Assembly: GCF_003856835.1 (NCBI RefSeq)
Contig: NZ_CP034145.1
Span: forward strand, 1,178,001 to 1,242,000
Direction of reading: 5' to 3'
DNA: 64,000 bases
Source of the DNA: Haloplanus aerogenes
GTDB lineage: Archaea; Halobacteriota; Halobacteria; Halobacteriales; Haloferacaceae
Made by a program: the position numbers and the translations under genes. A model generated the notes under the pieces. That model was not told the origin of the DNA, searched no databases, and saw only the letters and a list, made by a program, of their open reading frames with translations. Below, in pieces: positions 3,949 through 64,000 of the stretch (position 1 is its first letter; each line of letters begins with the position of its first letter).

Positions 3949-5195
3949 GCTCCGAAACAGGCAAATTCGGCGAGTACGGTGGACAGTACGTTCCCGAGGC
4001 GTTGATGCCCGCAATCGAGGAACTGGAGGACGCGTACGAGCGGTACGTCCTGAACAACGAGGACGGCTTCATGGACGACTTCCGTGAGCGGCTGGCGGAT
4101 TTCGGCGGGCGCCCGACGCCCCTCCAGCACGCCAAGCGGCTCTCGGATCGCTACGACTGTGACGTGTATCTCAAGCGCGAGGACCTGCTCCACGGCGGCG
4201 CACACAAGCTGAACAACGCGCTCGGGCAGGTCCTCCTGGCGAAGTATATGGGGAAAGAGCGCATCATCGCGGAGACGGGCGCCGGGCAGCACGGCACGGC
4301 GACAGCGATGGCGTGTGCCCACCTCGGCATGCCCTGCGAAGTGTACATGGGCCGGCGTGACATCAACCGCCAGCGCCCCAACGTGTTCCGGATGCGCCTC
4401 AACGGCGCCGAGGTGAACCCCGTGACCGTGGGCCGCGGCACGCTGAAGGAGGCCATCAGCGAGACGATGCGCGACTGGGCGACCAACGTCGAGGACACCC
4501 ACTACGTCATCGGCTCGGTCGTCGGCCCCCACCCGTTCCCGGCGATGGTGCGGGACTTCCAGCGAGTGATTTCGGAGGAGGCACGCGAACAGATCCGAGA
4601 GAAGGCGGGCCAACTTCCCGACTCCGTCGTCACCTGTGCCGGCGGCGGATCGAACACCATGGGCGTCTTCGCGGAGTTCGTCGACGACGAGGACGTGGGC
4701 CTCTACGCCGTCGAGGCCGGTGGCAGCAGTCTGGAGGTAAACGAGGAGGAAGGCGTCGCGCCCAACTCCGCGACGCTATCGACGGGGACGGAGGGCGTCC
4801 TCCACGGGTCGCGGACGCGTGTATTGCAGGACCGCGACGGGCAGATCATGGAGTCCCACAGCGTCTCCGCCGGCCTCGACTACGCCGGCGTCGGCCCCGA
4901 ACTCGCGGATCTGACCGACCGCGGGCGCGTCACGGCTGTCAACGTCGACGACGACCGGGCGCTGGAGGGGTTCCACCGTCTCTCCCAACTGGAGGGCGTG
5001 ATCCCTGCCCTCGAATCCGCACACGCCGTCGCCTACGTCGAGGCACACCACGACGAACTCGGTGACGTGGTCCTCCTCAACGTCTCCGGGCGCGGCGACA
5101 AGGACCTGGAGACGGTTCTGGAGGAGACCCACAACCGCGACATCGAGAACGCCCCCGACATCGACACCTTCGCGGCGACGGGGGGATTCCAGTGA
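3945..5195 (+). CDS. trpB: Tryptophan synthase beta chain
   Basis: A 416-residue PLP enzyme that condenses indole with serine to give tryptophan as the beta subunit of the alpha2-beta2 complex. The PLP-binding lysine is in GGAHKLNNA (Lys88), the phosphate-binding loop is GGGSNTMG, and the N-terminus [13 protein letters not shown] is typical of the TrpB1 class. It overlaps trpC by 4 bp and trpA by 4 bp, so the three are translationally coupled. Length matches the family. Confidence 0.97.
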
Positions 5196-6037
5196 GCCGT
5201 ATCTCGGCGGCGTTCGAAGACGGTCCGGCCTTCATCCCCTATCTCGCCGCCGGCGACCCCAACTACGAGGCGTCGCTGTCGTACGTGGAGGCGCTCGAAC
5301 GCGGCGGCGCGGACGTGATCGAACTCGGTCTGCCCTTCTCCGAACCTATCGCGGAGGGGCCGACCATCCAGAGCGCCATCGTCCGGTCGCTGGAGGGCGG
5401 CATGACGCCCACGCGCTTTTTCGAGTTCGTCGAGGACCTCGACGTGGACGTCCCGCTCGTCTGCATGACCTACTACAACCTCATCTACCAGTTCGGCGAC
5501 GACGAGGAACGGGGGCCGGAGGCGTTCGTCCGCCGCGCCGCGGAGGTGGGCATCGACGGCTTCGTCGTCCCCGACCTGCCGGCCGAGGAAGCCGACCCGT
5601 TGCGCGAGGCGTGCGATGCTCACGACTGCGAACTCATCTTCATCGTCGCGCCGACGACGAAAGGGGAGCGCCTGGAGCGCATCATGTCGCAGGTGTCGGG
5701 CTACGTCTACGTGCAGGCGCGACTCGGGACGACCGGCGCGCGGACCGACCTCTCGGATCAGACCGACGCGAGCCTCGAACGGATCGCCGAGTGGGACGTT
5801 CCCAAGGCGGTCGGCTTCGGCATCTCGTCGGGCGACCACGCCCAGCGAGTGATCGAGGCGGGCGCTGACGGTGTCATCGTCGGCTCCGCGCTGGTCGATA
5901 TCGTCGCGCAGGGCGTCGAACGCGGCGATCCGCCGGTGACGGTCGCCAATCGTCTGGAGTCGAAGGCCCGGGAACTCAAGGAGGGCGCACTCCGGGGGGC
6001 ACCGTCGGACGAACAGCCGCATCCGGAACGTACATAA
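5192..6037 (+). CDS. trpA: Tryptophan synthase alpha chain
   Basis: A 281-residue TIM-barrel subunit that cleaves indole-3-glycerol phosphate to indole, channelled to TrpB. The start is GTG overlapping the trpB stop (GTGA). The active-site Glu is in VIELGLPFS (Glu44). The second catalytic acid, Asp60 in the bacterial enzyme (ADGP), reads AEGP here (Glu55), a conservative Asp-to-Glu change at the expected spacing of 11. The phosphate site is [10 protein letters not shown] and the C-terminal [10 protein letters not shown]. The last ~100 bp carry the promoter of the next gene. Confidence 0.95.
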
Positions 6038-6038
6038 G
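6031..6038 (+). promoter_or_regulatory. TATA box for the ADH synthase gene
   Basis: TACATAAG at the very end of trpA lies 23-30 bp upstream of the next ATG. It suggests an independent leaderless promoter inside the trpA 3' end, in addition to any read-through. Confidence 0.5.
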
Positions 6039-6060
6039 CGCCACTGGTACAGGGTAACAC

Positions 6061-6852
6061 ATGAATACGGGAACACGCGCACGCCTTCAGCGCATCTCCA
6101 CGGACGACCGCTTCCTCATCGTCCCCATGGACCACGGCGTCACCATGGGGCCGGTGAAGGGGCTGGTCGACATCGAATCGACGATCGACGCCATCACCGA
6201 CGGCGGCGCGGACGCCGTCCTCACGCAGAAGGGCGTCGCGCCGCGCGTCCACGACAACAAGAACGGCGCGGGCTACATCGTCCACCTCAACGGCTCGACG
6301 AACATCGGTCCGGACGAGGACGACAAACGCCGGACCGGAACGGTCGAGGCCGCCCTCCGCGCCGGCGCCGACGCCGTCTCCTTCCACATCAACGTCGGCT
6401 CGGAGTACGAACCCGAGCAGATGACCGACCTCGCTCGCGTCACCGAACGCGCCGAGGAACTCGGCCTGCCGACGCTCGCGATGGCCTACGCCCGCGGCCC
6501 GGGCATCGACGAGGACGACCCCGAGGCCCTCGCTCACGCCGTCCGCCTCGCCGAGGAACTCGGCGCCGACGTGGTGAAGACGGGCTACAGCGGCGACGGC
6601 GAGAGCTTCACCCCCGTCTGTGAGGGGACTCGTCTGCCCGTCGTCATCGCCGGCGGGAGTCGCGGGACGGATCGGCAGACGGTGCGGATGGTCCGCGGCG
6701 CGATGGACGGCGGCGCCGCCGGCGTCTCCATGGGTCGCTCCATCTTCCAGCACGACGACCCCGGCGCCATCACGCGCGCCATCTCCGCGATCATCCACGA
6801 CGACGCGGGCGTCGACGAGGCGCTGCAGCGCGGCGGTCTGCTCGAAGCCTAA
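6061..6852 (+). CDS. 2-amino-3,7-dideoxy-D-threo-hept-6-ulosonate synthase (class I aldolase family)
   Basis: A 263-residue DeoC/FbaB-type aldolase. In many archaea this enzyme makes the first intermediate of the alternative route to 3-dehydroquinate from 6-deoxy-5-ketofructose phosphate and aspartate semialdehyde. Visible features are the N-terminal VPMDHGVTMGP motif, the Schiff-base lysine in VVKTGYSGDG, and the phosphate loop GGSRGTDRQT with a C-terminal GVSMGRSIF. It sits directly upstream of DHQ synthase II, its pathway partner, which distinguishes it from a glycolytic fructose-bisphosphate aldolase. Confidence 0.9.
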   Translation: MNTGTRARLQRISTDDRFLIVPMDHGVTMGPVKGLVDIESTIDAITDGGADAVLTQKGVAPRVHDNKNGAGYIVHLNGSTNIGPDEDDKRRTGTVEAALRAGADAVSFHINVGSEYEPEQMTDLARVTERAEELGLPTLAMAYARGPGIDEDDPEALAHAVRLAEELGADVVKTGYSGDGESFTPVCEGTRLPVVIAGGSRGTDRQTVRMVRGAMDGGAAGVSMGRSIFQHDDPGAITRAISAIIHDDAGVDEALQRGGLLEA

Positions 6853-9652: not shown

Positions 9653-10066
9653 ATGGAGGTTTACACTGTGGAGATCTCAGATAACCTGTTGTGTCTGTTC
9701 AGCGCGCGTGTGCGGTCGGAGGACGGATCGTACGTGATCGAGGTACCCCAGCGAGAGATCGAGACGGGGTCGGTCGATCCCGACGAAACGTACCGGGTCG
9801 CACTCATCTCCCGGGAGCGGGCGGAGACGGAGGAGACGGTCGAGTCCGAGACGCCCACGTCCGAGCCTCAGCCACCCGTCGAGGTCGGTGAGATTCGGTA
9901 CGTCGAGATCGAAGATATCGGCAAACAGGGCGACGGCATCGCCCGCGTCGAGCGCGGCTACGTCATCATCGTCCCCGGCGCCGAAATCGGCGAGCGCGTC
10001 AAAATCGAGATTACCGAAGTCAAATCCAACTTCGCGGTCGGTGAGATCATCGACGAAGACTTCTGA
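9653..10066 (+). CDS. TRAM-domain protein
   Basis: A 137-residue protein. The C-terminal ~65 residues are a TRAM domain (YVEIEDIGKQGDGIARVERG, then PGAEIGERVKIEI), a small beta-barrel that binds RNA. The N-terminal half is a separate short domain of unknown role. In archaea, stand-alone TRAM proteins act as RNA chaperones; that role here is inference. A TATA-like CCTTTAACC lies about 25 bp upstream of the ATG, giving it its own promoter. Confidence 0.88.
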   Translation: MEVYTVEISDNLLCLFSARVRSEDGSYVIEVPQREIETGSVDPDETYRVALISRERAETEETVESETPTSEPQPPVEVGEIRYVEIEDIGKQGDGIARVERGYVIIVPGAEIGERVKIEITEVKSNFAVGEIIDEDF

Positions 10067-10128
10067 CGACGCGTGCCGTTCCGTCCTCCCGCCCAAGACC
10101 TATGCCGACGGGTACGTGAACACCCGCT

Positions 10129-11058
10129 ATGCGCCGCCGTGCCCTCCTCTCCCTCGGCCTGACGGCCGCGACGGCTGGCTGTCTCGGCCCAGCGTTCGGA
10201 TTCGGTAGCGACTGCCCTCGTGGTGCCTCGCTCCGCTTGCGCCCCACGACCGACGCGGACACCGCCGAGGGTGCCAGTGATCGGATCGACACGCTCTCCC
10301 CGCCCGAACGCGAGGCTATCGCGGCCGCCCTCGACGGCGACGAACCGACGATGTGGCTGCCGGAGTCGGCCTCTGAGCCGTTCACCAGTTCGACGTACTT
10401 CGCCAGCGACGGGACGTACTACGCCGTCGAGACACCGCTCGTCACGACCGTCGATCGCATCGGCTATGGGGTCAAACTCGACGCCGGCCCCGACGTGGAC
10501 ACGAGCGGTCGTGCCGTCGCCTTCGACGACCTGCGGGAAATCGACCGTCTGGCGCTGTTCGCGCTCCTCGGCTACCCGAACAGTCGCGAGATGGAGAAGT
10601 TCGAACGCGCCCGCGCCATCAGCATCGGCGGCACGCTCGTCTTCCCCGACGACGAGACGCAGGCTCGCTCCGAACTCGCCCCGGACCCGGCCTACGACGT
10701 GATCCGGATCGGTGCACACGACTTCCGGTTCCAGCTCGTCGAGACGCGGGACGCGGTGGTCGAAACCCGTCGAGTCGACGTGGAGAGCGTCGCCACGTCC
10801 GCGAGCGAACTCGCCGCCATCGTCTACGACCGCTACGGGATCGACCTCGACGAGCGTGTCCTCTCCGCCGAGCAACGCGAGATCATCGAGACGGCCATCG
10901 ACGAGGGCTACGACGAGTGCGCGCCGTACACCGACGCCTACGCGGACCTGCAGTCGATGCTCGGGGGCACCGACTTCGACGACGACGGCGAACGCGTCGA
11001 CTACGCCAACTACCGGGACCGCTGGTACTTCGTCCAGCTCTCGGAGTACGTCGCCTAG
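10129..11058 (+). CDS. Putative Tat-exported lipoprotein, function unknown
   Basis: A 309-residue protein with an N-terminal MRRRALLSLGLTAATAGC. The twin arginines, hydrophobic stretch and lipobox-like TAGC indicate Tat export and lipid attachment at Cys18, as is common for haloarchaeal lipoproteins. The mature part is acidic with no recognised domain. Repeated tyrosines near the end (residues ~265-300) include YDECAPYTDAYADL. It is convergent with the radical SAM gene, overlapping by 4 bp at the stops. I do not recognise the family. Confidence 0.75.
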   Translation: MRRRALLSLGLTAATAGCLGPAFGFGSDCPRGASLRLRPTTDADTAEGASDRIDTLSPPEREAIAAALDGDEPTMWLPESASEPFTSSTYFASDGTYYAVETPLVTTVDRIGYGVKLDAGPDVDTSGRAVAFDDLREIDRLALFALLGYPNSREMEKFERARAISIGGTLVFPDDETQARSELAPDPAYDVIRIGAHDFRFQLVETRDAVVETRRVDVESVATSASELAAIVYDRYGIDLDERVLSAEQREIIETAIDEGYDECAPYTDAYADLQSMLGGTDFDDDGERVDYANYRDRWYFVQLSEYVA

Positions 11059-12776
11059 TCGGCCGACCCCATCGACTCGACCGCCGCGAACCGGGACAGA
11101 TCGGCGTCGACCTCCACCTCACCCAGTGAGGTGTAGGGCCGATTCACGACGATGTCGCCGGCCGTCGACCGGCCCACGCCCGGGAGCGTGGTGAGTTCGT
11201 CCATCGACGCCGCGTTCAGGTCGAGTGGGTGCGGGACGCCCGTCACCGAGCGATAGCCGTGATCGACGATCGCCACGTCCATCGTGGTTCCCAGTTCTCG
11301 TTTGCCGGGCACGGCGACCAGTAGGGGGTACGTTCCTAGCTGTCGGCCGAAGGTCTTCCCGCCCTCGTGGTACTCCAGATGCACGTTCGGTAGCACGGTC
11401 CCCGGCGGGGCGACCCGGCGGAGCATCGGCTGGTCGATTTCCTCGCGCACCTCGCGTTTGTACCGCTTGAACTGCTTCTTGTGGTCGCGGGCGATGTCGG
11501 CGCCGGTGTCGCTCATCTCCGTCCCCGCGAAGGCCATCACCTGCCGGATGTTGATCCGGCGGAGCATCAGCCCCTCGTCGTACACGCGCTGGAGGAAGCG
11601 CTTGTTGTGGTCGAACGTCTCCTCGCGCTCTCCGGCGAGGCCGTGGACGAGGTTGATGCCGGGGAGGAGTTTCGGGAGGCGGTTCGCGGCACCGTCGCCG
11701 GTCGTCGGGGCGTCGGCCGGATCGTCGCCCGGCCGCCACCCCGCCTCCTCGTTGACGACGCGCACCGCTTCCAGACACTCGTCGGCCGTGACGAGCAGGT
11801 TGTTCTCCTCCTGCACGACCGGGTCGGCGGATTCGAGGCCGAAGGCGGCGGTGTCGCCCGCCGTGTTGTGTTCGGCGATGATCCGGATGGCCTCGCGGGA
11901 TTTCTCCGGATAGTCGACGATGGTGACGGGGTTCATGTTGTCGAGGTGGAACGTCCCCAGATCGGGCGCCACCTCGCGGATGCCGCCGTACAGGCGGCGG
12001 AGGGCGTCCGGGTTGGGTGCCTCGCCGTCGCCGCCGAAGGCGAGGATGTCGGCCTGTCGGCCCAGCCGGAAGTGACGAACGCCCCGGTCGTAGAGTGCCT
12101 CGACTTCGCGGACGACCGACTCGGCCGAGCGGAAAGCCGGGTTGCCGTACAGCGGTTCGGTGCAGAACGAACACCGGTAGGCACAGCCCCGCGAGGTTTC
12201 GAGTTCGGCGATCAGGTAGTCGGGGTGGTTGGGGTGGTCCTCGACGATGAAGGCGCCTTTCGCGGCCCAGCGGTCGAGTTCCTCGTTGTCGCGCATGCGG
12301 TCGCCGAACCCCTCCAAGCCACTCGCTACGAGGTCGTGGGCCGCCGCCTCCACGTCCCCCTTGGCCACGAAGTCGTAATCGAGGTCCTTGCGCTCCATGT
12401 CCTGCGCGCCAGCGTTCTCCTCGCCGACGCCGAAGCGGACGGGGCCGCCCATGAGCGTCGTGCCGTCCGCGGTCCACGCCAACTCCCGCACCTCGTCGGG
12501 TTCGGCGGGCGTGCCGCCCACGTACTTTCCGGGGACGGTCATGCCGCCGAGGTAGATCAGGAGGTCGGGGTCGGCCACGTCGCCCCACTTCGACCGGTCG
12601 TCGCGGAGTTCGTCGATGGTGTGATACGCGATCCGCGACTCGGCAACGCCGGCGTCGACCAGTGCGCCGGCGGTGAAGCGAGGGTACGTCGAGACGTACG
12701 GCGGGACCCCGAAGTGTGCGGGTTCGTCGACGTAGCCGTCGACGATGGTAACCGTGAGATCGGCGGGGTCGTTCAT
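11055..12776 (-). CDS. Radical SAM protein with C-terminal helix-hairpin-helix (COG1031 type)
   Basis: A 573-residue protein. The N-terminal ~180 residues resemble a B12-binding-like region. The radical SAM cluster is CAYRCSFC (Cys198, Cys202, Cys205), which binds the [4Fe-4S] cluster that cleaves SAM. A TRAM/OB-like region follows, and the last ~70 residues hold a helix-hairpin-helix (DLNAASMDELTTLPGVG) typical of nucleic-acid binding. This order matches the archaeal COG1031 group, which has no settled function; a nucleic-acid modification role is inference. The upstream gap changes sharply to AT-rich DNA. Confidence 0.88.
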   Translation of the reverse strand: MNDPADLTVTIVDGYVDEPAHFGVPPYVSTYPRFTAGALVDAGVAESRIAYHTIDELRDDRSKWGDVADPDLLIYLGGMTVPGKYVGGTPAEPDEVRELAWTADGTTLMGGPVRFGVGEENAGAQDMERKDLDYDFVAKGDVEAAAHDLVASGLEGFGDRMRDNEELDRWAAKGAFIVEDHPNHPDYLIAELETSRGCAYRCSFCTEPLYGNPAFRSAESVVREVEALYDRGVRHFRLGRQADILAFGGDGEAPNPDALRRLYGGIREVAPDLGTFHLDNMNPVTIVDYPEKSREAIRIIAEHNTAGDTAAFGLESADPVVQEENNLLVTADECLEAVRVVNEEAGWRPGDDPADAPTTGDGAANRLPKLLPGINLVHGLAGEREETFDHNKRFLQRVYDEGLMLRRINIRQVMAFAGTEMSDTGADIARDHKKQFKRYKREVREEIDQPMLRRVAPPGTVLPNVHLEYHEGGKTFGRQLGTYPLLVAVPGKRELGTTMDVAIVDHGYRSVTGVPHPLDLNAASMDELTTLPGVGRSTAGDIVVNRPYTSLGEVEVDADLSRFAAVESMGSAD

Positions 12777-12943
12777 ACGCCTGCGTTCGCGGTCGACGCG
12801 TAAAACCGTGTCCGTACCCCAGCCAAAAAGAATTAAATATCAGCTTAGGAATACTGTATTCGATAATCCTCTCTCCCCTGACTGGCTTATGATTTTGAGA
12901 TGTGCGAGTTAAGATCTAATTAGTGTCAAATAAAGGTGATATG

Positions 12944-14539
12944 TCAGATGAATTTCGGCGCTTCTGAAGCAAATAAGGAAAAAAATTGTAATAGTGAAGA
13001 CAAATTGGCAGCATTATTTATTTCCCTGTCATATTTATCTAATATTCCACTAGAGGTACCTCCGAGTTCTTTCACCTTATCTAGGAAACCCACCGGTTCT
13101 TCTGACGAATTTTCAACTGCTTTGATTTTTCTCATCAATTCCTCCTTGTCTTCGTCGGGTAGTTCTGAGTCTTCAATTGAGTCGCGTAGAATTTGGACAT
13201 TATCCAAAATGACTGGCCTAATTTGGTTGACAAATTTAGCACTCGCCTTAGCCATTGAGGTTGCTTCAACTACGTTTTCTATTTCGATACTAGTCCCCTC
13301 TCCAATACCGAGCATCTCTTTTCGAAGTTTTTCGTGCTCATTTTTTAATTCGTTTAATTCTTCGTATTTTCTTTTTGATTCTTTAGCAGTTCTAATCAAT
13401 TCTGGAATCGTTTCACGGGCATAATTTCGCATCATATCGCCATAATCCGGGAACACCGAAATATCCGCTTCAGAAATATTATCCGCAGCATTTTCCAATT
13501 TTAGTTTAGCCTCTTCAAACTTGTCGATAGCTTTATTAAATTCATCGTTGCGCAGATGAATTTTGCCAGTAGAGACGATTTGCCTCGAATAGGCATAATT
13601 TTCTAAACTTCTAATAAGATTTTTATAAGATTTCTTAATATCTTGTCCAATAAGTTCTTTATCATCATTATCAAACATATGCTGCATGTTATCTTCTATC
13701 TTTTTCGCTCTCTCTATTGCTTTATCAAATTCGTCAACGGCAAGTGAATCATTCGTGTTCTTTGAATAATAGATTCCTTGCGCGAGATAATGGTAAAATT
13801 TTGCAAGTTCAAAAAAGAATTTGTCGTCGTAGCTGCCGATATCCCGATCTCCCTCAGGAAACATTGCATATGCCTTGCTAAAATGATTCGCAGCATCAGC
13901 TGCATCTCGTTTCTTTAAATTATCGATTCCCAATGCTATTTGTTTCCAACCCATCAACAAATTTTGCTCGTCGTCGTCGCAAAGTTGGGTCTGTTTTTCA
14001 CAAGAGTCTATTGCGTTCTCGATTTGCTTGACTGCTTGTTCAGTAGCTCCTCTGGCTAAACTAAGTTCTCCTTTTTGCATAAATTTTAATTTCTCCGATT
14101 CTAACGCAAATTCTTCCAATATATCTTTCTTTTCTTCAACAAAACCTTCTATATTATCTACGTCTTCTAATACTTGATTGATATGGAGATCTTTGTTAGA
14201 ATCTCCTGTTGATATTACATCAAGCAACTCATTAATGTGTGCTAGTGAGTCTCTATAGAATTCTTCCGCATCAGATAATGCTTCTGCTGCTTGGTTAGGT
14301 TCCAATTGTGCCGCTAATCTTGATCCAAGTGAAAGTAATAAATCTGCCTGCTTTTCCAGTGCTTTTGAACAAATAAGCATATCGTACGTGTTTCTCTCTC
14401 CAGAATCTGATAAAATATCTTCAACTTTCTGACCGTGTATTAGAACATATTTTTTTAATTCTTCTGGTGGGAGAGTCATATACTCCGACAGTTCCATACT
14501 AGTGATCTCACTCAAATTCGCAGGTAGCTCTTCGGTCAT
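12944..14539 (-). CDS. AT-rich orphan, large helical TPR-like protein
   Basis: A 531-residue protein that I do not recognise. Its DNA is strikingly AT-rich (many AAA, AAT, TTT codons) against a GC-rich genome, which indicates recent transfer. The ATG at 14539 is chosen because the 66 residues that could precede it run into a terminal-repeat element. The protein is almost all helical. At least four hairpins look like TPR units (about residues 156-183, 196-230, 248-284 and 314-351, for example ANHFSKAYAMFPEG and NKAIDKFEEAKLKLENA). A coiled-coil stretch follows (385-412) and the tail is hydrophobic (505-531). There is no signal peptide or enzymatic motif. It is a single gene, with no partner on either side. 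Confidence 0.8.
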   Translation of the reverse strand: MTEELPANLSEITSMELSEYMTLPPEELKKYVLIHGQKVEDILSDSGERNTYDMLICSKALEKQADLLLSLGSRLAAQLEPNQAAEALSDAEEFYRDSLAHINELLDVISTGDSNKDLHINQVLEDVDNIEGFVEEKKDILEEFALESEKLKFMQKGELSLARGATEQAVKQIENAIDSCEKQTQLCDDDEQNLLMGWKQIALGIDNLKKRDAADAANHFSKAYAMFPEGDRDIGSYDDKFFFELAKFYHYLAQGIYYSKNTNDSLAVDEFDKAIERAKKIEDNMQHMFDNDDKELIGQDIKKSYKNLIRSLENYAYSRQIVSTGKIHLRNDEFNKAIDKFEEAKLKLENAADNISEADISVFPDYGDMMRNYARETIPELIRTAKESKRKYEELNELKNEHEKLRKEMLGIGEGTSIEIENVVEATSMAKASAKFVNQIRPVILDNVQILRDSIEDSELPDEDKEELMRKIKAVENSSEEPVGFLDKVKELGGTSSGILDKYDREINNAANLSSLLQFFSLFASEAPKFI

Positions 14540-16660: not shown

Positions 16661-17748
16661 CGGGCCGCCTCCAGATCCTCGGCGGCGGCCGCCGCGATGC
16701 GCGCCGGCGAGAGCGGCGCGTCGGTCCACGGCGGCAGCCGTCGGTCCGTCCCCGGCGGTTCGATGGCGTCGACGTACGCCTCGATCTGGTCGAGTTCGTC
16801 CCCGCGGTCGTACGTGAGTCCGTTGAATCCGGCGTCGAGTTCGTAGCTCCGAACGAGCGAACGCGCCGCCGCCTGGTATCGGTCGGGAAGCGTGTCGTAG
16901 TCCGGGTCGACGCCACCCTCCTCGACGACCCGGAACAGCGCCGAGCCGACGTGCCGGCTCATATCGGAGAGGCCGGTCGGCCCGTTCACCGACCGGTGGT
17001 CGTGTTCGTACGTCCCCAGATCGACCTGTGCGCTCCCGTCGAAGCCGGCGTCGTCGAAGGCGTCGCCGAGGGTCCCGATCTCCAGTCCCCAGGAGCGTTG
17101 CGGGCGGAACTGCTCGGCTAGCGTCGTCGTCGCCGCGAACTCGCCGGCGAGCGCGTAGCGGAACGACTCCAGATAGCGGAGGATGGACGCGTCCCCCCGC
17201 TCGCTCAGTGCACGAACCAGCGGGACGAAAAACAGCCGGAACAGGCGACCGTAGAGACGGTCGTTTTCCACCCGGGCGTAGTACCCCTTCGAGAAGTCGT
17301 AGCCGTGGGCGAGGGGGTAGAGGAGACGCGGCACGTCGGCACGGGAGTAGGTCTTGGTGTCGGCGTCGTGGACGACGACGTACTCCCGGTCGAGTGCCTG
17401 CCCGAGGCCGAGCCACACGTCGCGGCCCTTCCCGAACTCGCCGTCGAGTCCGTGGTCGTCGAGGAGGGCCTCCAGGCGAGGCCCGTTACACCAGAGGACG
17501 GTCAATGAGAGATCGAAGTCGTCGAGCCAGTCGTAGAAGGGGCCGACGCGCTCGGGGGCGGCCCGGAGCGGGACGACGACCTCGCCCGGATCGACGCGTT
17601 CGAGTTCCGAGAGGACGCGATCCGGCGCCAGCCCGGCGTACTCCCGTTCGGTCATGGGGACGACGACCGCCGCCCGGTCGATCGGCGCCGTCGGCGTCGG
17701 ATCGGTCAGATCGTGGAGCGTCGTCACGCGTTCCTGGACGTACTCCAT
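16657..17748 (-). CDS. GT81-like glycosyltransferase (glucosyl/mannosyl-3-phosphoglycerate synthase family)
   Basis: A 363-residue GT-A-fold enzyme. The DxD metal motif is VVHDADTKTY, and the downstream SWGLEIGTL region is characteristic of glucosyl-3-phosphoglycerate synthases. These transfer a sugar from a nucleotide sugar to 3-phosphoglycerate in the synthesis of the compatible solute glucosyl- or mannosylglycerate. No cognate phosphatase gene is adjacent, so the product and physiological role are inferred. The ATG at 17748 is chosen; the codon before it is GTG. Confidence 0.8.
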   Translation of the reverse strand: MEYVQERVTTLHDLTDPTPTAPIDRAAVVVPMTEREYAGLAPDRVLSELERVDPGEVVVPLRAAPERVGPFYDWLDDFDLSLTVLWCNGPRLEALLDDHGLDGEFGKGRDVWLGLGQALDREYVVVHDADTKTYSRADVPRLLYPLAHGYDFSKGYYARVENDRLYGRLFRLFFVPLVRALSERGDASILRYLESFRYALAGEFAATTTLAEQFRPQRSWGLEIGTLGDAFDDAGFDGSAQVDLGTYEHDHRSVNGPTGLSDMSRHVGSALFRVVEEGGVDPDYDTLPDRYQAAARSLVRSYELDAGFNGLTYDRGDELDQIEAYVDAIEPPGTDRRLPPWTDAPLSPARIAAAAAEDLEAAR

Positions 17749-17801
17749 CACGTTTCCCTGTGTACGGGGAGGACAAAAGCCCGAGGATGCCGAGGTGGTC
17801 T

Positions 17802-17864
17802 ACGGATCGTCGTAACTGGGTACCGGTGGTCGGCGACTGCCGGAACTGACTTACGACGCTCCGT
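17802..17864. repeat. Palindromic repeat C, long hairpin between divergent genes
   Basis: Imperfect 25-bp arms (17802-17826 and 17840-17864) flank a 13-nt loop. The left arm contains CGTCGTAACTGG and the right arm GGAACTGACTTACGACG. The right arm nearly repeats that of element B (GGAACTGACTTACAACG). It lies between a minus-strand glycosyltransferase start and a plus-strand zinc-protein promoter, so here it is not a simple terminator. Confidence 0.65.
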
Positions 17865-17876
17865 ATCGGCCGGTCC

Positions 17877-17887
17877 GTTTTTTAAAC
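17877..17887 (+). promoter_or_regulatory. TATA box for the HVO_0758-type zinc protein gene
   Basis: GTTTTTTAAAC is centred about 27 bp upstream of the ATG at 17909, consistent with a leaderless transcript. It begins 12 bp after repeat C. Confidence 0.6.
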
Positions 17888-17908
17888 AGGGACGCCCAAG
17901 GTTGGGGT

Positions 17909-18079
17909 ATGAAATCGACGCGGAAGGGGCTCCGTGATGGCGAACTCGTCAAGGACACCTACGAGCGACTCACCTGCGCGGAGTGTGAGAAGGTGTTGAA
18001 AAAGCGGGACGACCCCGACGAAGTCTTCTCGCTTCGGATCTGTCCCGAGTGTGGCCGGGAGTGGAAGGACCTCAGGTAA
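17909..18079 (+). CDS. HVO_0758-type zinc finger protein
   Basis: A 56-residue protein with two CxxC pairs (TCAECEK and ICPECGR). The sequence MKSTRKGLRDGELVKDTYER and the ending EWKDL match, from memory, the haloarchaeal HVO_0758 zinc-finger family. It probably binds one zinc in the cytoplasm; its role is unknown. The stop overlaps the stop of the convergent aldo/keto reductase by 8 bp. Confidence 0.85.
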   Translation: MKSTRKGLRDGELVKDTYERLTCAECEKVLKKRDDPDEVFSLRICPECGREWKDLR

Positions 18080-19160
18080 AGACGGCGTCGAAGGCTCGGG
18101 CACCGAGCGGGTCGAACGTCCCCGCCGCAACGTCCTCCGCGACGTGGTCGGGATCACTCGCCCCGACCAGTGCGCACGTGACTGCCGGCGCGCTCCGTGC
18201 GAAGTTGATCGCTCGCTGGGCGGGGGTGTCTCCCGACAGCTCGGCGTCGACAGCCGCCGGCAGACCGGTTAGCAAGTCACCCTGTGCGAGGCTGGCGCTC
18301 GTGAACACGTCCAGATCGAGCGTCTGCGCGACCGACAGCGCCGACCGATACTCGCCCTCGAACTCGTGGACCTCCGCGGTGAACGCGTCGGCCATGTGGA
18401 CGTTGAACGGGAGTTGGATCGCCTCGAACCCCGTCTCCGCGCGGCCGACCGTCGCCGCCGCCGATCGCGCGCGTGCGGCGACTTCCGGGAGCGACAGGTG
18501 CGCGTCGGCTTCGGGTGGGACGCGAAACGCCTGCCACGTCGCCACGCCGTACCGGCCGATGTCGCCCGCGGCGACTCGCCGTTCCAGGCGCTCGAACGTC
18601 GCTTCGAGCTGGTCGTACACGTCTTCGCGCGACCGCGCCCGAAGCTGTGTCTCGGGGTTGTGGACGTAGTAGCAGTCGATCGTCTCTAGGCCGAGCGCGT
18701 CGAGCGAGCGGTCGAGCAGTGCCTCGATGGCGTCGGGCGCGATGCAGTGGTAGTCAGCGGCGAGGTCCGTCGGGTCGACGGGGCCGCCGTCGACGAACTG
18801 CTCGCGGATGTAGTCGGTGGGGTCGGCGGGGCGTTCGCCATCGAACGGCAGGAAGCCGCCCTTGGTGGCGACGACGACGGCCTCGCGGTCCACGTCCGCC
18901 CGCTCGATCGCTCGGCCGACGACCCGCTCGCTCCGCCCGCACCGGTAGTTGACCGCGGTGTCGACGACGTTACAGCCGCCTTCGAAGCCAGCGATCAGCG
19001 CGCGTTCGTAGTCGTCGTCGACGGCGTCGGTCGGGTCGCCGAGATAGGTTCCGAGGCCGATGCTGGAGACGACACCGGGGCCGAACCGCCGGAAGTAGGT
19101 ACGCCCGAAGCCGTCGCCGAAGCGGTCCCGGTACGCCCACGTGGCGCGAGTGGTCGCCAT
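18072..19160 (-). CDS. Aldo/keto reductase
   Basis: A 362-residue TIM-barrel NADPH-dependent oxidoreductase. The catalytic tetrad is visible: Asp and Tyr in VVDTAVNYRCGRSE, Lys in VVATKGGF, and His in YYVHNPETQ. The start ATG at 19160 follows a promoter gap of about 57 bp to the divergent region. The N-terminal ~30 residues before the barrel are slightly longer than usual. The physiological substrate is unknown. Confidence 0.9.
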   Translation of the reverse strand: MATTRATWAYRDRFGDGFGRTYFRRFGPGVVSSIGLGTYLGDPTDAVDDDYERALIAGFEGGCNVVDTAVNYRCGRSERVVGRAIERADVDREAVVVATKGGFLPFDGERPADPTDYIREQFVDGGPVDPTDLAADYHCIAPDAIEALLDRSLDALGLETIDCYYVHNPETQLRARSREDVYDQLEATFERLERRVAAGDIGRYGVATWQAFRVPPEADAHLSLPEVAARARSAAATVGRAETGFEAIQLPFNVHMADAFTAEVHEFEGEYRSALSVAQTLDLDVFTSASLAQGDLLTGLPAAVDAELSGDTPAQRAINFARSAPAVTCALVGASDPDHVAEDVAAGTFDPLGARAFDAVFT

Positions 19161-59523: not shown

Positions 59524-59700
59524 GGGGTCGTGGCCAAGCCCGGCATGGCGACTGACTCCAGAGGCTCCGCCCGGTGACGACACTCCAGACTGATATTCCG
59601 AGCGCGCGACTGATCATCGCCGCGCGACGACGACCCTCTGGAGTACCGAGGCGCAACCGGAGATATCAGTCGATCGGGGGTTCAAATCCCTCCGACCCCA
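59524..59700 (+). tRNA. tRNA-Trp (CCA anticodon) with 103-nt intron
   Basis: The acceptor arms GGGGTCG (59524-59530) and CGACCCC (59693-59699) pair, with A59700 as discriminator; CCA is not encoded. The T arm GGGGGTTCAAATCCC is present. The anticodon loop CTCCAGA carries anticodon CCA. It forms only after removing an intron: exon 1 ends at G59561 and exon 2 begins at A59665, and the loop closes on stem ACTGA/TCAGT. Intron position 37/38 and length 103 nt match the known Haloferax volcanii tRNA-Trp intron. Confidence 0.95.
59562..59664 (+). ncRNA. tRNA-Trp intron acting as box C/D guide RNA
   Basis: The intron contains a box C-like GTGACGA (59574-59580) and two CCGA boxes (D' at 59598, D at 59646) in place of CTGA. 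The 5-nt rule holds at both: the fifth base upstream of D (G59641, in CTCTGGAGTA) pairs with C34 of ACTCCAG, and the fifth base upstream of D' (A59593, in GACTGATATT) pairs with U39 in ATATCAGTC. In H. volcanii this intron guides 2'-O-methylation of C34 and U39. The CTCCG/CGGAG stem at its ends supports the bulge-helix-bulge splice site. Confidence 0.85.
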
Positions 59701-59827
59701 CTCTGAAATAAACTCTTACGGTGGGTTTTATCGACCATTAGCGGCGCTCCACTAACGAAATGTGAACGCGAGCGGCGGCTATTCTCTGAGCGTGGCTGTT
59801 CGTCTCGTCGGCCTGCTGTAGTCCGGA

Positions 59828-60064
59828 TCATTCTGTTACCTCGTCGAAGTCGGTCGGATCGCTGTGCTCGCAGATGTCGATGTCGTCGAACTGCTGGAGG
59901 TTTGCGGGGACGGTGCTGGCCGGCGCTCGAAGTTCATCAGTCTCCAAGCCCGGCTCCAGACGTTCGAAGGAGGAGTATCCGTCAGATCTCAGCGGCGTCT
60001 GTGGAGAGTTCTGGGCAAAATCAGTCTTGAATATCGATACTTCGTTGAAAGAATCCGAATCCAA
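59828..60064 (-). CDS. Possible small protein at the end of the island operon
   Basis: A 78-residue acidic frame starting at TTG 60064, overlapping the end of the peptidase-like gene by 44 bp. It has no recognised domain (ends with DICEHSDPTDFDEVTE). It could be a real third gene, a frameshifted extension of its neighbour, or a chance frame in AT-richer DNA. Weak support. Confidence 0.25.
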   Translation of the reverse strand: MDSDSFNEVSIFKTDFAQNSPQTPLRSDGYSSFERLEPGLETDELRAPASTVPANLQQFDDIDICEHSDPTDFDEVTE

Positions 60065-61583
60065 GTTCGGACTGAAAACGGCTTGCCAGTTCGAGAATCT
60101 GTTGGGTCGCTCCTGCAGCGATCAGTTCGTCAACAATTCTACTGGTCTGTTCGTACAGGACTCGCACTTCGCCATCTTCAACAAACTCATCGATAGCTGG
60201 TTCGACATCCGCCATCACGTTTTGATGCTGGAGGATGCTCTCGATCGCGCTCCATCGGATAACTGTGAGCCCAGCATTGACTTTCAGCAGATAAATCTCC
60301 GTTTCATCGAATCGCGTTGCAATCGTCGGTGACGGTTCTATACCCCGATCGGTAAATGACACCAGGGAAGGGAGAGGGGAGTTGGCCACCGCATCCAAAT
60401 TCTCGCTCATCGCCTCGAAGAGTTCGAACAGGGGATTCGACGGATCAACCTTCTTCAACTCGTGAAACATCTGCTCAGCATCGTTTAATGCGTCGAGATG
60501 TGCGTCTTCTGTATCGATAGAATACAGATCGATCGGAAATTGACGGTTGATCAACCAATACAGAACGAAATCGGGGATTAGCCACCAAACTACCTTTTGG
60601 AGCCACCGCAGTATTCGATCAGAAAAATCGTCTGACTGTTTTCGGGCCAGAACCACCTCGATTTGTTCGAGCAGTCTCAAAAAAATGGATGATGGATTGC
60701 CTTGCTCGGACAGATTCGACGAAAGCTGAATGAATTCTGGAATCGCTCTAATGTGTTCCTCGCCGTACCTGTCGAGAATATCAAGAATACGGTAGAGCAC
60801 GTATCGTTGGTATTCTTGGCCGTACGAGTGCCATTCTGCTCTGAACATCTCCAAAATGGATTCCATGTCGTCCTCGTATCCCTCCATGAACTCCTCGACA
60901 GACGGACGAGCAGGAGGATCATTCTCCGCGGAGTTTGAAGAGAGGCGAGCGTAGTGATCTGCTAGTACATTCCGCGTTTCATCGGGAGCCGTAATCGCCT
61001 CTGCAATCCGGGCGCTCACCTCCTGCAATGGTTCCCACATCGAGAGACTTATCATCATATGACAATGAACACCCACCTGAAGACCGAAATGGAATAATTG
61101 GACGAGTGAACTGATGTCGAAGTGACTGTACTCATTTTCGTACCGCTCAAATTCGTCCAGTTCGACGTCGAGACTTGTGAGGACGAAACGTATCATTCCG
61201 GTATGTTGATCGCGCTCGATCGTTCGCTTCGAGCTCGCCGTGAATATTTTGAGCAGATTTAGATAGACGATGTTCGCAAGTAAATTAGGGAAGTACAGTC
61301 GAACCCAAGCGGGGCTACCCCTGTTCTGATACGTGTGTTCCAGTTCGTGGCTGATGATCTCTTTTGTAATCTTGCCCAATTCGTCCTCCACCCCGTCGGC
61401 CGCAATCTCCGTACGTAATTCCTCCAATGTCTCGACAGGTGCTGGAAACTGGAATTGACAGTAGTCGATCGTCGGGAAGTACATTCCAGGGGGTGTATGG
61501 GCTTGAGTCACCCCTCCAGTGAGCGGATAATGATACCCGAACACCGGTGAGTACTCAAACGATTGGAACCATTCGGAGGTCAT
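60021..61583 (-). CDS. Putative zinc metallopeptidase-like protein (HELEH) of the tRNA-linked island
   Basis: A 520-residue protein that I do not recognise as a named family. HELEH (residues 79-83, in EIISHELEHTYQNRG) fits the HExxH zinc motif; candidate third ligands are His173/His175 in GVHCHMM or Glu184/Glu188 in WEPLQEVSARIAEA, about 100 residues on, which would suggest a gluzincin-like arrangement. A hydrophobic patch (RWLQKVVWWLIPDFVLYWLI, residues ~330-350) could contact membrane. The base composition is lower GC than the genome. It follows its partner by 1 bp, forming an operon. Peptidase activity is inference from the motif alone. Confidence 0.6.
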   Translation of the reverse strand: MTSEWFQSFEYSPVFGYHYPLTGGVTQAHTPPGMYFPTIDYCQFQFPAPVETLEELRTEIAADGVEDELGKITKEIISHELEHTYQNRGSPAWVRLYFPNLLANIVYLNLLKIFTASSKRTIERDQHTGMIRFVLTSLDVELDEFERYENEYSHFDISSLVQLFHFGLQVGVHCHMMISLSMWEPLQEVSARIAEAITAPDETRNVLADHYARLSSNSAENDPPARPSVEEFMEGYEDDMESILEMFRAEWHSYGQEYQRYVLYRILDILDRYGEEHIRAIPEFIQLSSNLSEQGNPSSIFLRLLEQIEVVLARKQSDDFSDRILRWLQKVVWWLIPDFVLYWLINRQFPIDLYSIDTEDAHLDALNDAEQMFHELKKVDPSNPLFELFEAMSENLDAVANSPLPSLVSFTDRGIEPSPTIATRFDETEIYLLKVNAGLTVIRWSAIESILQHQNVMADVEPAIDEFVEDGEVRVLYEQTSRIVDELIAAGATQQILELASRFQSELGFGFFQRSIDIQD

Positions 61584-61584
61584 C

Positions 61585-62310
61585 TTAGGCGGTCGGGTGG
61601 AGGCCGGTCTCGATTACGGTCCGAACAGCATTTCGCGTGATGATTACTGTGCTAATAGCATCGTCCTCGTCCATCGATTCGTTACGCTCGTTGATTTGTC
61701 TGCTCTTTTGCTTGATAAATTCCAACTTACTGAATAGATTGGCGGTGTGATCGGGTGTCATCTGTGCCTGCACTAACTCTATGCCATCTTTCCAAACGTC
61801 GTCGGGGATCTCAGAGCAATACGCTTCACAAAAATACGCTATCAGATGTTCGATTGCGAAGGCGCTGTGTAGTATCACACCCGTTTCTGACCCCTCATGG
61901 AGTGCATCGTACGATTTCTGCAGATCGTCTTTCGTCTCCGTCGGCAGCTGCGTCCAGACATCAGTCCCTACCCACTCGGCGGGATCTGTGGCAATTGATT
62001 TCGAGTTGATAGTGATCAAGTCACCGTCAAGCCGCTCCCGCAGTTTTCGAGCGAGACGCTCGTTCCCGCCCGTTAGTTCTCCGATTTGATAGCCCACGAT
62101 GAGGAGTTCGATTATCGGGAGGATTTCGATCCAATTGAAAGCAAAGCCTGTGTCGCTCTCGTCACCCTTCATCTCCTGCGTTGGGTCGAACGATTCGAAC
62201 CATACACTTGGAGAACTCCTACGTGAGTCTGTCAGCTCGTCCTGAATCTGTTGCAGATCATCCTCAGTGAGTTCTGTCGCTGGCGAAAGCACGAGGTACT
62301 CGTCTCTCAT
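61585..62310 (-). CDS. Membrane-associated, possibly HEPN-like partner of the island operon
   Basis: A 241-residue protein, not recognised. One hydrophobic segment lies near residues 58-78 (NWIEILPIIELLIVGYQIGE). The C-terminal helices (VILHSAFAIEHLIAYFCEAY, LFSKLEFIKQKSRQI, IITRNAVRTVIETG) resemble a HEPN-like four-helix bundle, with RN at 226-227 like the HEPN RN motif, but the following His is not in place. It is the first gene of the operon, with a TATA-like GATATAAC about 30 bp upstream of ATG 62310. Its role is unknown. Confidence 0.55.
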   Translation of the reverse strand: MRDEYLVLSPATELTEDDLQQIQDELTDSRRSSPSVWFESFDPTQEMKGDESDTGFAFNWIEILPIIELLIVGYQIGELTGGNERLARKLRERLDGDLITINSKSIATDPAEWVGTDVWTQLPTETKDDLQKSYDALHEGSETGVILHSAFAIEHLIAYFCEAYCSEIPDDVWKDGIELVQAQMTPDHTANLFSKLEFIKQKSRQINERNESMDEDDAISTVIITRNAVRTVIETGLHPTA

Positions 62311-62655
62311 ATCGATCTAGTTGCCAGTGTGTCATGTTATATCTTCTCGTGGAAATCGGTAGCAAACATACGATAGAAGATAACCCCAATGAGATCCGAC
62401 TATGTGGCCCTCGATGATCCTCAGTCAAGAGTTTGAAATTGGGTGTTTCGAATGGATCCCTCGCACAGCGACGGTACTTCACTGTGACCGGCAGGGGGAT
62501 AGAGTCCGTTTTCGGCGGGTTCGGACTCTCCAGAGGCGTCTTTGCTCTCTCTCACCTCACTTCGTTCGGTGAAACTGCACTGTGAGCGGCTACTGCACCA
62601 GTTTTCCTCCGACCGGACACGACGGACGACCGAGCCGGCCGCGGTCGTCACCTGC
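62311..62655. other. Intergenic gap between the island operon and the surface glycoprotein gene
   Basis: The left 40 bp hold the island promoter; the rest has no credible gene. A hairpin GAGTCCG/CGGACTC occurs at 62502-62528. A 9-bp run CCTCCGACC at 62606-62614 repeats part of the tRNA-Trp 3' end (59689-59697). Otherwise nothing is recognised. Confidence 0.5.
62502..62528 (-). terminator. Hairpin downstream of the surface glycoprotein gene
   Basis: A 7-bp perfect stem with a 13-nt loop, 128 bp past the stop of the minus-strand surface gene. No U-run follows, so the terminator call is weak. Confidence 0.3.
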
Positions 62656-64000
62656 TCAGGCGTCTCGCCGAGCGGCCAGTAGTGCAGCCGCGACGAGCGC
62701 GATAACCGCGACGACGGCCCCGAAGCCGGCACCACCCCCTTCGGTGGGCGTCGGTGTGGGCGTCGCAGTCGGCTCGGGCGTGGGTTCGGGTGTCGGCTCC
62801 GGCGTGGCTGTCGCAGTCGGCGTGGGTTCGGGCGTCGCCGTCTCCGTCGGCGTCGGCCGCTCGGTCGGTGTCGGCTCGGGCGTCGCCGTCTGTCGGGTTT
62901 CGACGATCTCTACCTCGACCGTGTCGGTGTTGTAGGAGTCGTCCACTTCGAGCGTGTACGTGCCCGGCTCCACCTCCACGTCGTCGAGGTCGAGCGCGAT
63001 CCGGTACCTGCCGTCGTAGCCCCACTCGTCGGTCGTCGTGAGGGCGACGGAATCGCCGTCGTCGGTCAGTAACTCGACGGTGATCGAGTTGTCGCCCGGC
63101 CGCAGGTTGGTCGTCCCCTCGATGATCATCGTGTCGTCGATGGCGATCGGATTGACGCCTGTGGCCGGTGCCCCCTGCGGGTAGACGTTTCCGATCGTGG
63201 ATCGGGAGTCCGCGAGCCGGAAGGTCGTCGTCACCATCCGGTCGTCGCTCGCGGTCGCTTCGGTCGTCGCATCCAGGAGGCGCGCGCGGACCTGAGCACC
63301 CGTCAGCGACTGCTGATCGAGGTTGGTCGCGAACTGCTGGAGATCCGAGTACGCGTCCCCGCTCGTGAGCGCACGCAGGCCGCCGTTCCCGAACTGGCCG
63401 TCGCGTCCGGCGGTGAGTGCCATGGCGATGACCGGCCCTTCCTCGAGATCCTCGCCGATGTTCAGGTCGTCTTCCTCGAACGTGTTGTCGGAGTCGATCC
63501 GTACGTCCGTGTACTGGACGTTGCCGCGTTCGTCGACGAACAGGAAGGCGACGGTCTGCGAGCCGAGCGACGTGCCGGACACGCCGATCACGCGGTCGTC
63601 GACGGACACCTGTCCGCCGACCGACTGGAAGGTGGCGCTCAGTTCCGTGTCGGTCACGCGGAGCGACCGCTGGAAGCTCGTCCCGGTCGTGAACTCGGAG
63701 ACGCTGAGACTCCGCGCGATGTTCCCGCGCCCGCCGGCGTCGGCCGCGTCGATCACCCCGAGGCGGTACGTGCCGGGCAGGGAGAGGAGGTCGTTACCGT
63801 CCTCGTTCCCTTCCGAGAGGACGATCTCCTCCTCCTCGAACGTGCCGTCGGCGTCGACGGAGAGCGTCGCCTGCGTGCCACCGGAGGCCGAACTGTCGAG
63901 ATCCAGAAGCTGGTAATCACCCTGTCGGCGCACGTAGAAGGCGACGTCGTCGACCCCGCTCGACGCCGTCCCGTTCAGGGTAATCTCGCTGCCGATGGCG
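62656..64000 (-). CDS. Surface glycoprotein with PGF-CTERM-like anchor (5' end outside window)
   Basis: The last 447 residues of a cell-surface protein; the frame stays open to the window edge. It is made of beta-rich domains of the BGTF/S-layer type (GTYRLGVIDAADAGGRGN, VSGTSLGSQTVAFLFVDERGNV), ending in a Thr/Pro/Glu repeat linker (TPEPTPTAT and variants) and a C-terminal GAGFGAVVAVIALVAAALLAARR, the tripartite sorting signal recognised by archaeosortase. Mature protein would be O-glycosylated on the linker and lipid-anchored. Confidence 0.88.
   Translation of the reverse strand, partial: AIGSEITLNGTASSGVDDVAFYVRRQGDYQLLDLDSSASGGTQATLSVDADGTFEEEEIVLSEGNEDGNDLLSLPGTYRLGVIDAADAGGRGNIARSLSVSEFTTGTSFQRSLRVTDTELSATFQSVGGQVSVDDRVIGVSGTSLGSQTVAFLFVDERGNVQYTDVRIDSDNTFEEDDLNIGEDLEEGPVIAMALTAGRDGQFGNGGLRALTSGDAYSDLQQFATNLDQQSLTGAQVRARLLDATTEATASDDRMVTTTFRLADSRSTIGNVYPQGAPATGVNPIAIDDTMIIEGTTNLRPGDNSITVELLTDDGDSVALTTTDEWGYDGRYRIALDLDDVEVEPGTYTLEVDDSYNTDTVEVEIVETRQTATPEPTPTERPTPTETATPEPTPTATATPEPTPEPTPEPTATPTPTPTEGGGAGFGAVVAVIALVAAALLAARRDA

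Follow-up and report, generated by a model that had tools for sequence, protein, structure and literature searches.

A HELEH protein in a foreign-looking insert at a haloarchaeal tRNA hotspot as a candidate divergent Glu-zincin-type metallopeptidase

In the stretch of the Haloplanus aerogenes genome analysed here (64,000 nucleotides, hereafter the window), an orphan protein carrying an HELEH motif is, on balance, probably a divergent cytosolic metallopeptidase of the Glu-zincin type, or a metallopeptidase-like protein, with E188 as its putative third zinc ligand. The motif probably, though not certainly, marks a candidate zinc-dependent protein-cutting site, in which zinc would be bound by H79 and H83, with E80 as general base. 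The coordination would be completed by E188, which lies on a helix 105 residues past H83. This reading draws on the collinear order of three short motifs shared with a bacterial family carried on mobile DNA. The gene and its neighbour occupy a two-gene insert that looks foreign by composition and sits at a tRNA insertion hotspot. The features discussed below are as follows.

59524..59700 (+): intron-bearing tRNA bordering the insert (Rfam RF00005, 45.6 bits, 107-nt insertion)
59750..62500 (no strand): low-GC insert (48-54%, flanks 59-68% GC), missing from 10/10 same-genus loci fetched
60021..61583 (-): ORF of the HELEH protein, 520 aa, ATG start, orphan
60999..61022 (-): EVSARIAE, residues 188-195, candidate helix for the third ligand (E188), aligning with E[SY]MAxxxE in the bacterial family
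61326..61349 (-): HELEHTYQ, residues 79-86, candidate zinc-binding helix judged from sequence, aligning with HEYxHFLQ of the bacterial family
61473..61487 (-): GMYFP, residues 33-37, matching [FY]YxP of the bacterial family
61585..62310 (-): partner gene, 241 aa, upstream of the HELEH gene, with a degenerate DUF4145/HEPN-like C-terminal region (~100-234)

Results and discussion

An orphan protein

The ORF first singled out in a sequence-only reading of the window is real, its motif, which has the HExxH form of clan MA(E) Glu-zincins, falls at residues 79-83, and the residue numbers assigned there to H173, H175, E184 and E188 are correct. The protein has a pI of 4.5 and contains cysteine only at positions 42 and 174; because no 19-residue hydropathy mean exceeds 1.31, its highest value, we read it as cytosolic. 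Scans against Pfam, NCBIfam, PADLOC and PHROGs returned no convincing family score or match at cut-off, a sequence search of the PDB gave no result and a literature search yielded nothing on this protein.

Genome searches likewise identified no believable relative in any of the collections covered, and the protein is an orphan. Among genomes of its own family, the only match was its own copy (1/170). In the class sample, 39/391 genomes matched at E <=0.01, own copy included, of which 37 gave weak matches at about query residues 217-330, mostly in genes with a length typical of PrkA; these were rejected as relatives, L002 being PrkA by Pfam and the remaining ones being judged from the same query range, as was L023, by eye an unrelated HTH-like protein. 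None of the matches was believable in genomes of other families (4/125 at E 0.1; 3/61 and 7/26 at E 0.01). With residues 1-215 as the query, 42/392 genomes of the phylum matched at E <=1, own copy included, and no ORF listed for the loci fetched for these matches (L081-L109) holds an HExxH. Plasmids, phages, viral contigs and genome contigs, searched by tblastn and pattern scans, contained no relative either; weak tblastn matches in plasmids and phages were rejected as a fabD gene, a TetR-like ORF (by eye) and a match antisense to a phage CDS. The proposal of a new metallopeptidase family is therefore too strong for what is a single orphan sequence.

The HExxH motif and chance

By itself, HExxH occurs at chance level in this genome and is no evidence for a zincin. 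The window together with 20 further stretches of its genome (400 kb) yielded 335 ORFs of 100 aa or more, in which 8 occurrences were observed against 8.9 expected, and the motif arises in 4% of shuffles of the HELEH protein itself. Three of the other seven HExxH occurrences look like true zincins by eye (one in L149 and two in L151), and the longer HExxHxxQ pattern, which HELEHTYQ fits, is found in two of the eight, the HELEH protein and one evident zincin in L151. Locus L151, in the window's own genome, encodes at 17170-18681 (-) a 503-aa protein of zincin-like look that contains HEYVHTRQ and has a C-terminus rich in Cys and resembling a zinc ribbon.

These frequencies are what would be expected under the main rival explanation, in which this orphan helical protein, encoded on a mobile-DNA insert, would carry HELEH by chance, lack a zinc site and have a structural or binding role. 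We regard this as possible, though less probable than a zincin-like protein. It is further favoured by the lack of homologues in our searches and by a profile comparison with the bacterial family that is not significant (below), but the hydrophobic stretch that precedes HExxHxxQ and the collinearity of three motifs speak against it.

Collinear motifs shared with a bacterial mobile-DNA family

The comparison family was chosen through a motif that occurs in hypothetical proteins of bacteria; converted to a DNA pattern, this motif matched 16 viral contigs. One of these, the IMG/VR contig L130, encoded a protein of the wanted architecture, and tblastn with that protein found plasmid relatives in Hymenobacter (E 2e-27) and Aliarcobacter (E 1e-7). 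The family, which we refer to by its HEYIHFLQD motif, comprises only three full members in this analysis, 411-440 aa as compared:

L130, IMG/VR contig, 9923-11245 (-)
L137, Hymenobacter swuensis pHsw1, 5001-6302 (+)
L138, Aliarcobacter cryaerophilus pCNAC48, 4980-6215 (+)

None of the three reaches the cut-off of any Pfam, NCBIfam or PADLOC model, and their alignment shows YxP, HEYxHFLQD and E[SY]MAxxxE in that order. An integrase-like ORF (by eye) lies near the L130 gene, while the Hymenobacter gene starts 14 nt after a gene matching the PADLOC candidate PDC-S68 and has SNF2, methyltransferase and helicase genes nearby.

The HELEH protein resembles this family in the collinear order of YxP, HExxHxxQ and ExxAxxxE, in its N-terminal HExxH, in its carriage on mobile DNA and in the similar spacing from the first motif histidine to the glutamate (109 residues, against 110, 112 and 125). 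It differs in that the C-terminal Cys cluster is absent, as are the letters HEYxHFLQD, and in a YxP-to-H spacing of 45 residues rather than 29-32. Profile similarity by hhalign was not significant in a first comparison (probability 0.2%, E 0.26) or in a local rerun on the trimmed region (E 0.16), and the global mode gave an unusable alignment (E 0.75 over 6 columns, with 213/300 shuffles equal or better). Only after that mode had proved unusable was an end-to-end dynamic-programming alignment adopted, with one gap-penalty set, of residues 21-215 against the trimmed three-protein profile.

This alignment sets Y35/P37, H79/E80/H83/Q86 and E188/A191/E195 on family-invariant columns. Its score of -23.3 compares with a mean of -45.0 (sd 6.5) for shuffles in which the HELEH helix was kept fixed, 2/300 of which reached it, as did 1/200 full shuffles, 0/239 random windows from native ORFs and 0/6 other HExxH windows of testable length (the best, at -33.0, being the evident zincin in L151). 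Five zincin-like control windows scored above the HELEH protein: L127, a truncated HEYIHFLQD member, and the unrelated L120, L123, L129 and L139, which share the letters HE[YF]xH[YF]xQ with the profile's strongest motif; a high score alone therefore does not prove membership. In a motif-only test, p was 0.038 for YxP, 0.082 for ExxAxxxE and 0.010 for the two jointly. In our view the three-motif collinearity moderately supports a zincin-like core whose third ligand is E188, homology to the bacterial family being unproven. It is this collinear match that sustains the original metallopeptidase idea, which the hhalign comparison did not bear out.

The third ligand and the predicted structure

Four residues, His173, His175, Glu184 and Glu188, had been put forward as candidate ligands. 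The alignment to the HEYIHFLQD family favours E188 and gives no support to H173 or H175, which we rejected; E184 is an alternative candidate. According to PMC3356374, thermolysin-like gluzincins place the third-ligand glutamate in an ExxxD motif 20-60 residues after the second histidine. Residues 103-143 of the HELEH protein, which contain E123 and E141, hold no ExxxD and thus depart from the thermolysin-like rule, and the best candidate, E188, lies 105 residues past H83. Also unlike thermolysin-like peptidases, E188 is followed by A191/R192 and not by ExxxD; E184xxxE188, the sole ExxxD/E within residues 84-220, is loosely similar. Other clan MA(E) families follow a looser third-ligand rule, as described in PMC3890501, on which the definition of zincins used here is based.

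AlphaFold models from the single sequence are of low confidence, with a pLDDT of 36.8 for the full-length protein and 44.1 for residues 1-225 and zero residues at pLDDT >=70 in either. Both agree with the earlier claim that the motif sits in a helix (68-88 in the full-length model, 68-85 in that of residues 1-225) and have E188 near the beginning of a later helix, which at such confidence amounts to weak support; the full-length model consists largely of helices. The predicted placement of HExxH in a helix is a likeness to clan MA(E), including thermolysin-like members and the L3 loop of BlaR1/MecR, as is that of the downstream candidate glutamate on another predicted helix. When PDB folds were searched with the model of residues 1-225, the best match, at E 0.07, was not a zincin and there was none among the 50 matches listed, but the low confidence of the model makes this result uninterpretable.

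The partner gene

The HELEH gene starts 1 nt past the stop of the 241-aa partner gene on the same strand; the two are therefore probably co-transcribed and form a probable operon. The partner has no Pfam match at cut-off. Its residues ~97-234 are similar to the C-terminal parts of haloarchaeal proteins in 11/391 class genomes at E 0.01, own genome included, the best non-self match in the class sample reaching E 1.6e-8, and some of these relatives have weak DUF4145 or HEPN matches. The likeness to DUF4145/HEPN-like domains lies in this alignment of the partner's C-terminal ~135 residues; unlike its relatives, the partner reads SRQINER in place of the RNEVNHP-type motif, the RNxxxH-type motif having been lost. 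None of eight partner relatives whose neighbourhoods were inspected stands beside an evident relative of the HELEH protein. Two HExxH ORFs adjoin partner relatives, one in L047 (HEIDH, no Pfam match) and one in L048 (HEDVH, aconitase-like by eye).

The insert and its tRNA

The bordering tRNA, which we take to be tRNA-Trp, was missed by ARAGORN. Third-position GC is 0.56 and 0.60 in the gene pair against 0.80 to 0.89 in three native genes. Eleven other genomes have the tRNA; in 10/10 same-genus loci fetched from them, with G077 omitted as fragmented, similarity to the window stops at the tRNA or at most ~200 bases past it. The insert has a copy number of 1 in the genome; a search for further genomic copies found none, and its far side shows no direct repeat matching the end of the tRNA.

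Cargo after the same tRNA varies among the relatives L076, L077, L078 and L070, and includes an AbrB-like ORF accompanied by a small one (by eye), DUF433, an Mrr endonuclease together with a HerA-like ATPase, and a Fer2 protein. To the right of the insert, 62656-64000 (-) of the window encodes an S-layer glycoprotein of the HVO_2072 type with PGF-CTERM. Separately, locus L079 encodes at 11460-13046 (-) a protein that combines a camelysin-like N-terminus (Peptidase_M73) with a Laminin_G_3 domain.

Possible role of the gene pair

Because of this setting and the neighbourhood of the Hymenobacter gene, we infer that the HELEH protein and its degenerate HEPN-like partner may form an accessory conflict-type module carried at the tRNA hotspot, in which the HELEH protein would be a conflict-related peptidase. 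The main text of a conflict-system paper (PMC7159879) contains neither 'haloarchaea' nor 'DUF4145'. A more specific version, in which the HELEH protein would be an archaeal offshoot of a mobile-DNA zincin family extending from Bacteroidota to Campylobacterota and would act as proteolytic effector, with the partner as a catalytically dead HEPN-like sensor, strikes us as doubtful. Least probable is a protein of zincin fold whose role has been lost or is non-proteolytic, as a zinc-binding scaffold or pseudo-peptidase forming a sensor or inhibitor module with the HEPN-like partner, a reading that would fit the partner's departure from the RNxxxH-type motif of its relatives but sits poorly with the intact E80 and both histidines of HELEH.

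Conclusion

The preferred reading, a divergent Glu-zincin-type protein, is plausible and partly supported, and its newness is modest: it would add one divergent, unproven member to a known kind of enzyme. Should the chance explanation hold instead, the case would warn that, in this proteome, an HExxH carries no information by itself. If the zincin reading is correct, an orphan archaeal gene pair would be tied to an unnamed zincin family of mobile elements that matches no Pfam, NCBIfam or PADLOC model at cut-off, and would offer a testable module of peptidase and HEPN-like protein.
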